Shown in pieces: positions 19,563 through 53,975 of a stretch of DNA of 64,000 bases (position 1 is the stretch's first letter; the number at the start of each line of letters is the position of its first letter). The translations under genes were made by a program, and so were the position numbers. Source of the stretch: an uncultured Saprospiraceae bacterium (GTDB taxonomy: Bacteria; Bacteroidota; Bacteroidia; Chitinophagales; Saprospiraceae); the NCBI GenBank assembly GCA_937125475.1, contig CAKZLL010000316.1:1-64000 (forward strand), in the 5' to 3' direction. The notes beneath the pieces are model-generated. The model was given only the letters and a program-made list of their open reading frames with translations. It was not told where the DNA came from and did no database searches.

Positions 19563-19595
19563 AAGGGTCGAACACTTTTAAAGTGTTCGACCCTC
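19563..19595. repeat. 33-nt palindrome (REP-like), 16+1+16
   Basis: Arms AAGGGTCGAACACTTT and AAAGTGTTCGACCCTC with a single central T; one mismatch at the outer end. It has the same length and symmetry as the palindromes around the RayT-like gene. Confidence 0.75.
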
Positions 19596-21029: not shown

Positions 21030-21062
21030 AGGGATCAGATCTTTTAAAAAGATCTGATCCCT
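21030..21062. repeat. 33-nt palindrome (REP-like), 16+1+16
   Basis: Perfect arms AGGGATCAGATCTTTT / AAAAGATCTGATCCCT around one A, extendable by two more pairs (21028-21064). It matches the RayT-associated arm AAGGATCGGATCTCTC at 11 of 16 positions. Located between the carA stop (21077, minus strand) and the eno start. Confidence 0.82.
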
Positions 21063-25700: not shown

Positions 25701-25733
25701 AAGGCTCGGGCGCTCATTGAGCATCCGAGCCTT
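25701..25733. repeat. 33-nt palindrome (REP-like), 16+1+16
   Basis: Arms AAGGCTCGGGCGCTCA and TGAGCATCCGAGCCTT around one T, one mismatch. It lies 5 bp before the end of the minus-strand permease gene and can also act as its terminator. Confidence 0.78.
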
Positions 25734-47650: not shown

Positions 47651-47683
47651 AAGGATCGGATCTCTCCGAGAGATCCGATCCTT
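47651..47683. repeat. 33-nt palindrome flanking the RayT-like gene (upstream)
   Basis: Perfect 16-bp arms AAGGATCGGATCTCTC / GAGAGATCCGATCCTT around C, followed by GAAA, 37 bp before the transposase start. As a + strand sequence it is the exact reverse complement of the copy at 48667. Confidence 0.88.
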
Positions 47684-47720
47684 GAAACTCTTAGAGTCCT
47701 AAAACCCAAACACACTTACA

Positions 47721-48385
47721 ATGACAACCAAAAAGAAAAATTACTACGCAAAATTATTACCTAATCAATGTTATCATATTTACAATCACGCCATTGGACA
47801 AGAAAATTTATTCAAAGTACCTCGCAATTTTGAATATTTTTGGGAGCGATGGAATAGATATATCTCACCTTATTTTTCTAATTATGCGTATTGCCTAATC
47901 ATTTTCACATACTTTGCAAATCGAAAACCATTAACGATAATATCAAAAAAGTAATTGAAAAGGAAGGCACACGAAAAGGAATTGCTTTTCTAAATGACGA
48001 AGTAGCGATCAATGTTTTTTATGAAGATCAATTTAGGCGTTTTTTTATCAGCTATACCAACTCGATTAACAAACAAGAAAAAAATCGTCATGGTGGTTTA
48101 TTCAACGCGAAGTTTAAACGGACATTAGTTTCTACTGTGGATGATTTTTTGTACTTCCTTCATTATATTCATCACAATCCTATTCATCATGATTTCGCGC
48201 TTGATTATTCGGATTGGGACTATTCTACTTATCACGTCTATCATGACCAAATTACAGCAAAAGGATTATCTAAATCTCCTGTTTTAAAATTATTTGCCTC
48301 AAAGACTGATCCATCGGGTTGGACTGGATTTGTAGAATCGCATGAGGCATTTCGAACTAATTTTAAGGATTTTTATGGTCGTTAA
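47721..48385 (+). pseudogene. REP-associated tyrosine transposase (RayT/Y1-type) with a 7-nt deletion
   Basis: The first frame (47721-47954) reads QCYHIYNHAIGQENLFKVP..., the usual RayT start. At 47890 it loses phase, and the second frame (from 47891, ending 48385) continues PNHFHILCKSKTINDN, RRFFISYTNSINKQ, GLFNAKFKRTLVS, and the end YIHHNPIHHDF. Relatives read AYC-L-M-PNHFH; here the codons for L-M are lost. The 7-nt loss fits slippage between two TGCCT copies. The HUH-type histidines (NHFH) are retained and YIHHNP carries the likely catalytic Tyr region. REP palindromes lie on both sides (47651 and 48407), with GAAA/TTTC tags pointing inward. Inactive as it stands. Confidence 0.85.
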
Positions 48386-48406
48386 AAATTGGGATTTAAA
48401 AATTTC

Positions 48407-48439
48407 AAGGATCGGATCTCTCGGAAAGATCCGATCCTT
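48407..48439. repeat. 33-nt palindrome flanking the RayT-like gene (downstream)
   Basis: AAGGATCGGATCTCTC, G, GAAAGATCCGATCCTT: one substitution (GAGA to GAAA) from perfect. Preceded by TTTC. Placed 22 bp after the transposase end. Confidence 0.86.
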
Positions 48440-48666
48440 AACATCCCAACATTTTCACATTTAAAAAATCATTATTTTCTACCAAAAAAAACTAAATTTT
48501 GGCTTGTAAATATTTAACAATCAAGTAGATGCAATTTTAATCATTTTCAAAAACATACACTTTTTTTCTACTTTTACTACTTTTTTCTATGTAGAACACT
48601 ATTGCCCACCGTGATCGAAGTCCTTACCTTGCGAGCAATTCATTATTAAACATTTAACGGGAATAT

Positions 48667-48699
48667 AAGGATCGGATCTCTCGGAGAGATCCGATCCTT
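48667..48699. repeat. 33-nt palindrome, third copy near the RayT-like gene
   Basis: Perfect 16-bp arms, central G, followed by GAAA. 228 bp from the second copy and 43 bp before the S74 gene start. The space between 48440 and 48666 is AT-rich with no gene. Confidence 0.86.
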
Positions 48700-48741
48700 G
48701 AAAAACGCTCAATCCCTATTTTTTAACAATTAAAATCTAAT

Positions 48742-51072
48742 ATGATGAAAAAATTGCTCATGATGATGATTTATTTTTTATTGACTTTAACTGCCTTTGG
48801 GCAAAGTAATACTCCTGCTTTTCAGTGGCAGGGCGTGATTAGAGATGCGTCTGGAACGCTCTTCAATAATCACACGATTCAACTCAAATTTTCTATTTTG
48901 AAAGGAAGTTCAACTGCTACAGGTGCAGAATACACAGAAATCCATTCTAATATTCAAACCAATGCTTATGGTATTGCCCATGTAAAAGTAGGTCGAGGAA
49001 CGGCAGACACTAATCTTCCAGCTACTAATCTTGGTGAAATTAATTGGTCTACCGATGTTTATTTTATCAAAGTTGAATTAGATACTGGTTTAGGGACTTT
49101 TATGGAAATGGGAGCGACTGAAATTCTCTTACCTCCTTTTTCTTACAATCATTCTTTCATCATAGAAAATGATAGTTTAAAAATTACCGATACCAATGGA
49201 ACGCTATCCGTTAGTATTAGCGAGCTACAGCAACGAACCGATAGTTTAAAATTAGTGAATAATACGTTACGATTAGTGGCAAGTGATACGACTTATAATG
49301 TGGATTTGACCTATTTGAATAAAATTACTGTTTTTGATTTTGATACAAGTACCAATGTTTTGAGGATCATTGAGGCAAATGATACTTTGTTAGTGGATCT
49401 GGGAAAATTGAATACTACTACGGTTAATACGATTGTTGCTACAGAGAGTTTGACTGTTGGTGAGGTTGATACGACTTCTACTGATGATGCGCAACAATCA
49501 ACAAATGATGCAATAACTCCATCAATAACTACAGAAAGAACTCAAACTTTTACTGTTGAAAATACTGGCAAACTCTCTAAAATTAACTTAACCATTAGTT
49601 CAAATAATGGATGTAATATAAAAATACTTAACGCTGATGGATCATCGACAGGTACTTTTTATAATATAAATCAAAATGGGAATACCCCTACTCTTCAAAC
49701 AATTGTTTTTCCAACTCCTCTTGATGTTCTTGCAACAGAACAATATATTTTGGAAATAAATCCATTTGTAGAAATGAAACTGGCTTATGGAAACAACAAT
49801 CCTTATACTGATGGAGTTTCCGATCTCTCGGTTGGTACTGATCCTGACCTTGTTTTTGAAGTTTTTGTGGATGTGGTTTCTCCTTCTCCTATTCAGTCAA
49901 ATGCTGATGGAACAGTTTTGAAAGCACCTGTGGAGATTAGAAATGATGATAATGAATTAATTGCTAGATTTAATGATGATGGCTTTGATATGCGCGAAGA
50001 TAGAACATGGTACTCTAGCAAAGATATAGACTTAGTTGAAACAGGAAACGTAATTGGAGCATATGAATGGAGTTTTGATTTTCCAGATGGTGATGGTAAC
50101 GATAGATGGAGTATTCATGATCCAGTTCATGGAAGTATTCTTACTGTGAGAAATGATGGTAATGTTGGTATTGGTATCGATAATCCTACAGCAAAACTTC
50201 AAATTATTGGTACTCCTTCTGGCTCTAATGGTAATACTCTAATATTAGGCTATGGAAGTAGTTCTAATTTAAGACTAGGCTATCATAATGATTATAGTTG
50301 GATACAATCACATGGCACAAAACCGCTTAGAATTAATGAGTTGGGAAATAACACAATTTTAAATCTAAATAGTGGTAAAGTTGGTATTGGTAATCCTAAC
50401 CCAGTAAATTTACTTGACATATTGGTAAGTAATTCTAGTACAAATTCAATTGAAGGAATACATACACAATGGGATACAGATTTTCTTTTTATAGGTTTAA
50501 AAGATGAAGGAAGTGATAGAAAAGATGCCTTAATTAGGTGGGGTGATGGAAGTCCTGATAAATTAAGATTTATGTTTCACCTTCATCAATCACAAGACCA
50601 AGATATTTTAATCTTACATTCAAGTGGTAATGCAAACCTAACAGGAAACCTAACCCAAAGCTCCGACATCCGCTACAAAACAAATATCAAAGCAATTCCC
50701 AACGCACTAGAAAAAACACTACAACTAAGCGGAGTTAATTACATTTGGGAAAGAGAAAAATTCCCAAACAAAGCATTTTCAAAAGAAAAGCAGATAGGAG
50801 TAATTGCCCAAACCGTAGAAAAATGGTTTCCAGAATTGGTACATACGGACGAAGATGGCTATAAATCAGTAGCTTATTCCAAGTTCACACCAATCCTAAT
50901 AGAAGCGATCAAAGAGCAACAAATCCAAATCGAAGACTTAAAAACCGAAGTCAATGACTTACAAACGCTCTTACAAAAAAATGCGGACTTAGCTCAAAAA
51001 CTAGACACATTAACCAAACAAGTCCAAGCCTTGAATCAAAACAAAAACGCTTCAACGGTCAGCAAGCAATAA
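48742..51072 (+). CDS. Secreted tail-fibre-like protein with C-terminal S74 intramolecular chaperone domain
   Basis: 776 residues with a signal peptide (LLMMMIYFLLTLTAFGQ). Beta-rich repeats follow (for example PAFQWQGVIRDASGTLFNNH, the tail-fibre-like start), then a long Thr/Asp-rich region, and from about 635 the Peptidase_S74 chaperone domain (SSDIRYKTNIKAIPNALEKT, KQIGVIAQTVEKWFPELV, YSKFTPILIEAIKEQQIQ) ending in a coiled coil. In phage endosialidases this domain trims itself off by a Ser-Lys dyad after folding the trimer; many Bacteroidota secreted proteins carry it. No phage genes are nearby. The next gene (22 bp downstream) has a T9SS tail and may share its transcript. Confidence 0.9.
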   Translation: MMKKLLMMMIYFLLTLTAFGQSNTPAFQWQGVIRDASGTLFNNHTIQLKFSILKGSSTATGAEYTEIHSNIQTNAYGIAHVKVGRGTADTNLPATNLGEINWSTDVYFIKVELDTGLGTFMEMGATEILLPPFSYNHSFIIENDSLKITDTNGTLSVSISELQQRTDSLKLVNNTLRLVASDTTYNVDLTYLNKITVFDFDTSTNVLRIIEANDTLLVDLGKLNTTTVNTIVATESLTVGEVDTTSTDDAQQSTNDAITPSITTERTQTFTVENTGKLSKINLTISSNNGCNIKILNADGSSTGTFYNINQNGNTPTLQTIVFPTPLDVLATEQYILEINPFVEMKLAYGNNNPYTDGVSDLSVGTDPDLVFEVFVDVVSPSPIQSNADGTVLKAPVEIRNDDNELIARFNDDGFDMREDRTWYSSKDIDLVETGNVIGAYEWSFDFPDGDGNDRWSIHDPVHGSILTVRNDGNVGIGIDNPTAKLQIIGTPSGSNGNTLILGYGSSSNLRLGYHNDYSWIQSHGTKPLRINELGNNTILNLNSGKVGIGNPNPVNLLDILVSNSSTNSIEGIHTQWDTDFLFIGLKDEGSDRKDALIRWGDGSPDKLRFMFHLHQSQDQDILILHSSGNANLTGNLTQSSDIRYKTNIKAIPNALEKTLQLSGVNYIWEREKFPNKAFSKEKQIGVIAQTVEKWFPELVHTDEDGYKSVAYSKFTPILIEAIKEQQIQIEDLKTEVNDLQTLLQKNADLAQKLDTLTKQVQALNQNKNASTVSKQ

Positions 51073-53942: not shown

Positions 53943-53975
53943 AAGCGTCGGAAGCCTTGAAGGCTTCCGACGCTT
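53943..53975. repeat. 33-nt palindrome (REP-like), 16+1+16
   Basis: Perfect arms AAGCGTCGGAAGCCTT / AAGGCTTCCGACGCTT around G, 56 bp after the T9SS protein gene and 24 bp before the Dabb gene. Confidence 0.85.

Follow-up and report, generated by a model that had tools for sequence, protein, structure and literature searches.

A probably decayed REPtron-like locus with tagless 33-nt palindromes in an uncultured Saprospiraceae bacterium

A broken RAYT gene between palindromes

The window, by which we mean the whole 64,000-nucleotide stretch of DNA analysed here, carries a RAYT-like gene with a 33-nt palindrome on each side and a third palindrome further downstream (Table 1). All three have GAAA or TTTC on one side, as can be read directly from the sequence; in the two that bracket the gene this is the gene-facing side, and at the third it points away from RAYT. 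An earlier sequence-only reading had reported the palindromes with these flanks, the same tetranucleotide facing the gene from both sides and the third copy with its GAAA, and all of this stands. A perfect 16-bp palindrome in 64 kb is far beyond chance, and each of the local palindromes folds 4.7-6.1 sd better than its shuffles on either strand. The three have the centre CTCTCSGAGAG in common (one with a mismatched pair), which is rarer among the copies elsewhere. Four more palindromes in the window are probably diverged members of the same class. The one nearest the locus has the length, odd centre and layout of the locus palindromes, from which we infer common descent. Just past the third palindrome, positions 48742-51072 encode a protein of 776 aa that looks secreted and has a Peptidase_S74 chaperone domain.

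Table 1. Features of the RAYT locus, other palindromes of the window, and palindromes inside the RAYT genes of relatives
Feature	Position	Strand	Description
Upstream 33-nt palindrome, perfect	47651..47683	.	AAGGATCGGATCTCTC-C-GAGAGATCCGATCCTT; 16/16 pairs, 1-nt centre; 37 nt ahead of the RAYT ATG
GAAA flank, proposed "tag", not conserved	47684..47687	+	directly after the upstream palindrome
RAYT pseudogene, N-terminal part	47721..47954	+	MTTKKKNYYAKL..YHIYNHAIG..NYAYC, then out of frame
RAYT pseudogene, C-terminal part	47891..48385	+	other frame; HUH and Tyr motifs
HUH motif PNHFH	47894-47908	+	in the RAYT C-terminal part
Tyr motif YIHHNP	48164-48181	+	in the RAYT C-terminal part
TTTC flank	48403..48406	+	directly before the downstream palindrome
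Downstream 33-nt palindrome	48407..48439	.	one mismatched pair (15/16), 1-nt centre; 21 nt past the RAYT stop
Third 33-nt palindrome, perfect	48667..48699	.	16/16 pairs, 1-nt centre; next gene (48742) begins 42 nt on
GAAA flank of third palindrome	48700..48703	+	directly after the third palindrome
33-nt palindrome	53943..53975	.	AAGCGTCGGAAGCCTT-G-AAGGCTTCCGACGCTT; probably of the same class, diverged
33-nt palindrome	25701..25733	.	AAGGCTCGGGCGCTCA..TGAGCATCCGAGCCTT; probable diverged member
33-nt palindrome	21030..21062	.	AGGGATCAGATCTTTT-A-AAAAGATCTGATCCCT; probable diverged member
33-nt palindrome	19563..19595	.	AAGGGTCGAACACTTTT..GTTCGACCCTC; probable diverged member
In-gene palindromes of relatives	L084, L089, L091, L092, L094, L106, L112, L123, L125, L137, L139, L142 and others		two copies in L048

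The motifs PNHFH and YIHHNP, together with the family matches, bear out the earlier claim of a RayT-like gene, but that reading overlooked a frameshift. All 12 sequences of a set made up of the window ORF and 11 relatives match the NCBIfam family NF047646 (REP_Tyr_transpos) at E <= 0.01, the best at 1.7e-18; one displayed score is 55.4 bits against a curated cut-off of 80. A PDB profile search gave 4ER8 (TnpAREP with REP) as its sole match, at E 5.6e-7. When an intact relative, L036, was modelled with AlphaFold (pLDDT 94.8), the closest fold was again 4ER8, at E 3.7e-8 and TMt 0.71, followed by the ISDra2 and IS608 transposases. The HUH motif and the Tyr motif Y---NP of RAYT class 2 are present in the window and in its relatives, and the Y1 fold is modelled on the relative. 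Pfam Y1_Tnp did not match the window ORF, and a match to DNA_gyraseB fell below the cut-off and was taken as spurious. RAYT matches occur in 250 of the 398 genomes of the order, and the close relatives collected for the window RAYT come from Saprospiraceae and other Bacteroidota, the C-terminal part reaching 38-48% identity with the closest.

The reading frame is broken just upstream of the HUH motif. The frame that begins at the ATG has the usual YHIYN...AYC N-terminus and matches profile positions 3-110, and the two overlapping profile matches mirror the break. Relatives read AYCL(I/M)PNHFH at this point, where the window gene is short by two codons and one base. Judging by these letters, a 7-bp deletion between short CCTAAT direct repeats would fit the frameshift better than a programmed shift; no slippery heptamer was seen, and a programmed -1 shift would drop two residues that are present before HUH in relatives. 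The frameshift could also be an assembly error, the assembly being fragmented into 559 contigs. No other near-complete gene of this family was found in the 92%-complete assembly (G000); the only other trace found there is a small piece of a further RAYT of the family, at C179:2315-2517 (L210, L211). We believe the RAYT in this genome is probably dead or recently lost. No palindrome was found inside the window RAYT gene, and PADLOC found nothing. The genome does encode a separate, intact 146-aa Y1 protein (C60:6968-7309; L030) with the motif Y---Q--HH, of the subclass 1.2 type, and subclass 1.2 proteins have no link to REPs.

Palindromes beside RAYT genes and across the genome

The palindromes are cognate to RAYT by association. 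Across the 73 Bacteroidota RAYT loci with enough flank, a matching palindrome lies on both sides at 31, compared with 1 of 390 sham positions drawn from the same loci, and at least one similar palindrome is present at 58 loci compared with 27 sham positions; none was detected at the other 15 (about 20%). The commonest length is 33 nt (49/102), and the nearest palindrome lies at a median of 43 nt upstream and 9 nt downstream of the gene, which the window locus fits. Each locus has its own palindrome sequence, and similarity between palindromes tracks similarity between proteins (rho 0.36, where permutation gave an sd of 0.075 and a maximum of 0.23). L040, which at 48% is the nearest relative of the window gene, has the palindrome AGGTATCGGATAC..., which has ATCGGAT...ATCCGAT in common with the window palindrome. 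Another locus, L075, carries arrays of one palindrome on both sides of RAYT, with a spacing of about 57-59 nt, and these reach into the 3' end of the RAYT open frame. In 16 of 76 relatives the RAYT gene itself contains an in-frame palindrome of about 33 nt in the stretch from HuH to Tyr; it often resembles those that flank the gene and often encodes a peptide like NLQGFQNLEGL. The rate in control coding sequence is 0.007 per 250 nt.

The palindrome is also dispersed through this genome, and the analogy with REP systems that the sequence-only reading had drawn is upheld. Genome-wide counts rest on pattern searches and on a 590-kb sample. The patterns gave 29 close copies in the 5.76 Mb when the centre was left free and 40 with a looser pattern; reversed control patterns gave 0 matches. 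With 3 mismatches allowed the family was not found in any of 100 relatives, one of them of the same genus, so it is lineage-specific. The dispersed copies, mostly CTCTTNAAGAG as opposed to the centre of the local copies, hold their pairing through two-sided compensatory changes. By a count from the list of close copies, 8 of the 12 with two mismatches have both at paired positions, where about 0.5 would be expected, and 506 of 528 pair cells in 33 unique copies are Watson-Crick or GU, a figure that leans towards pairing since at least 12 pairs were required for a copy to enter the set. Other hairpins in the genome, as seen in the 590-kb sample, have A-run stems, vary in length and form no family. 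In Draconibacterium we find 15 copies with sharp 33-nt borders and unrelated flanks.

Where the copies lie is far from even. They favour gene 3' ends, mostly just past stop codons, and gene ends are also favoured by REPs in other phyla (PMC3733652). The 35 copies with both neighbours comprise 15 in convergent gaps, 19 between co-directional genes and 1 in a divergent gap, the last being the palindrome upstream of RAYT; measured against shares of intergenic length, the bias carries a p of about 1e-4 in each direction.

Two further repeats were seen in the same genome. In one, a 33-nt palindrome lies within the outer inverted repeats CAGGYTRGACGGGAAT ... ATTCCCGTC; it has five copies (G000 C108:6, C204:13, C230:54681, C482:7086 and C496:10481; L194, L199, L200, L201 and L198), two of which are at contig ends. 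The other is a second palindrome family, GTAGGGCAAAGGCATGCCTTTGCCCTAC, whose two ends carry GTAG and CTAC (L217:16718, L226:7109, L233:4314 and a variant at L219:2323), which resembles the "double foot" REPs of subclass 2.4.

Some positions within the palindrome are conserved. Among 16 palindrome sequence clusters, position 15 is T in 91% and position 14 is T or C in all (100%), the outermost base is A in 81%, position 6 is T in 81% and position 10 is A in 75%. An arm mini-hairpin of at least 5 bp occurs in 53% of non-redundant arms and in 2.6% of shuffles. We regard these internal traits as candidate recognition features, the alternative being common descent, and the signals of an internal template and of co-variation could come partly from descent rather than recognition. 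In group 3 RAYTs both the loop bases and the stem matter (PMC8266576), so recognition inside a hairpin has precedent.

Flanks and competing explanations

The sequence-only reading had proposed that TTTC (GAAA on the other strand) marks the strand for RayT as GTAG does in E. coli. The arguments for it are that the tetranucleotide is on all three local copies, faces the gene in the two bracketing ones and recurs as GAAA at 3 of 30 Draconibacterium feet, and that a purine often comes first in the flank, both in the genome copies and at RAYT loci. The flank counts show the lack of conservation that the reading itself had said would refute a tag. Among the 47 non-duplicate copies in this genome, 5 have GAAA at a foot and 3 of these 5 are at the RAYT locus, leaving 2 among the other 44, compared with a mean of 0.5 and a maximum of 3 at shifted positions. 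At the palindromes that flank RAYT genes in other Bacteroidota, the place where conservation was to be looked for, 3 of 154 feet carry GAAA, against a mean of 1.2 and a maximum of 4 at shifted positions, and none carries TTTC; neither GTAG nor GTGG occurs at any of these 154 feet, nor GTAG at any of the 94 feet of copies in this genome. Where palindromes are paired, at 31 loci, the two flanks that face the gene resemble each other no more than outer or same-side flanks do. The Draconibacterium count is a small unexplained excess and a loose end, which we do not read as a tag because feet are generally purine-rich. A GA dinucleotide, at 15 of 94 feet against a control mean of 3.1, is not claimed either, since it mostly follows from purine-rich and A-rich first flank positions and the motif was picked post hoc.

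The agreement among the local copies still has to be accounted for. Three other copies drawn at random from the genome have some foot 4-mer in common, on one side each, in about 1.3% of draws, so the sharing of GAAA is somewhat unusual and not extraordinary. Since the rarer centre is also common to the three copies, they probably spread locally and took GAAA along; a tag can be inherited by local duplication in this way. The inward GAAA/TTTC tag is a local feature, a strand-marking role for it seems to us very unlikely, and the palindromes are better viewed as tagless REP-like repeats.

Two other explanations deserve the same treatment. The palindromes might be ordinary bidirectional terminators that lie around RAYT by chance, an idea suggested by their position at gene 3' ends and often between convergent genes, by stable RNA hairpins and by flanks that are T-rich at positions 4-7. 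It is weakened by the fact that the palindromes are homologous in sequence, exactly 33 nt long and odd-centred, unlike other hairpins in the genome, by an association with RAYT far above sham positions, and by the copy upstream of RAYT, which sits between divergent genes, a place that calls for no terminator. The T-richness does not differ between transcript-3' flanks and the other sides; we rejected a terminator T-tract on the ground that the enrichment is equal on non-terminator sides. We judge this explanation improbable. The whole locus might instead be an insertion sequence like IS200/IS605 that moves as a unit, having palindromes at both ends as a transposon would and an HUH/Y1 fold that matches the IS608 and ISDra2 transposases too. 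Against this, the genome has one near-complete gene and one remnant set beside dozens of solitary palindromes, the Tyr motif is the class-2 Y---NP and not the Y---Q of IS200 (PMC6006769), and no second whole element was found, nor any set of near-identical whole copies, which would support it. We hold this explanation to be very unlikely.

Known systems and what the locus means

We place the locus, as a decayed member, in a RAYT type of Bacteroidetes that has been described and little studied. The nearest published class is subclass 2.6 (RAYT group 5 of Bertels), Bacteroidetes RAYTs with "atypical" hairpins that lack GTRG (PMC6006769). The two agree in phylum, in the absence of a GT[AG]G foot, in the HuH-Tyr distance (a median of 80 among relatives here, 82 in PMC6006769) and in flanking secondary structures that have copies elsewhere in the genome. 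When compared with the published motifs, the YIHxNP part of the subclass 2.6 motif YIH[QN]NP is present here. The differences are that HuH is NHFH in 32 of 36 relatives rather than NH[LIV]H, that F takes the W position in almost all of them where PMC6006769 gives WQ, and that the hairpins here are perfect and strong whereas PMC6006769 calls the 2.6 structures weaker. Subclass 2.4 (RAYT group 4) allows NHFH, and YIxNNP, common in the relatives here, is a further likeness to it. In-frame REP insertions in the gene are unique to subclass 2.4 according to PMC6006769, and the in-frame palindromes of the relatives, absent from the window gene, therefore make the class here a mixture of 2.4 and 2.6 features. 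Subclass 2.4 differs in having REPs with GT[AG]G feet, which GTAG/GTGG at 0/154 do not match, and the W position is again F here.

Comparison with the canonical GTAG REPtrons of E. coli and Stenotrophomonas (PMC2817692, PMC8266576) shows the same arrangement of REPs that flank RAYT and are dispersed, with one family per RAYT, and the same 4ER8 fold. The palindrome here differs in lacking GTAG, in being longer (33 nt) and in being fully symmetrical, so that both strands fold alike. In the passages of PMC3733652 on TIRtrons and TIRYTs, the genomes have no matching GTAG REPs, and a RAYT-like gene likewise stands between inverted repeats of another kind, of which some are self-complementary and some form repeat families; the examples those passages name are outside Bacteroidota and no common 33-nt template is reported in them.

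We believe the locus is quite probably a decayed REPtron-like locus of Bacteroidota type, made up of an HUH/Y1 RAYT gene and its cognate tagless 33-nt palindromic repeats. By homology, the palindrome would fold when single-stranded, for example on the lagging-strand template; RAYT would bind the hairpin, cut nearby with its tyrosine and rejoin the strands, and over time such cutting and rejoining would copy palindromes to new sites. For recognition RAYT would probably rely on parts of the palindrome itself, namely the T-rich arm ends by the centre and the outer A or purine positions, and on no external TTTC tag. In this genome the palindromes seem to outlast the gene. Those past stop codons, often between convergent genes, are placed where they may serve as RNA 3'-end or terminator hairpins.

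A wider proposal is made tentatively, and we hold it at well below an even chance. There may be a large Bacteroidota RAYT clade that has lost the external guide tag and reads a fully symmetrical 33-nt palindrome through a template within it, formed by T-rich ends of the arms next to the centre, an outer A that is conserved and one mini-hairpin per arm. In such a clade both strands would be substrates, and in about one fifth of relatives RAYT would also carry the palindrome in frame within its coding sequence.

Recognition or cutting in the REP systems characterised so far depends on the GTAG foot. If RAYTs with symmetrical tagless palindromes are truly widespread, they would require another means of choosing the strand and the cut site, and the tagless group would offer simple intact test systems, such as Draconibacterium orientale. 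Palindromes that outlast their likely enzyme, as they may do here, bear on the question whether a host function is what maintains such repeats.
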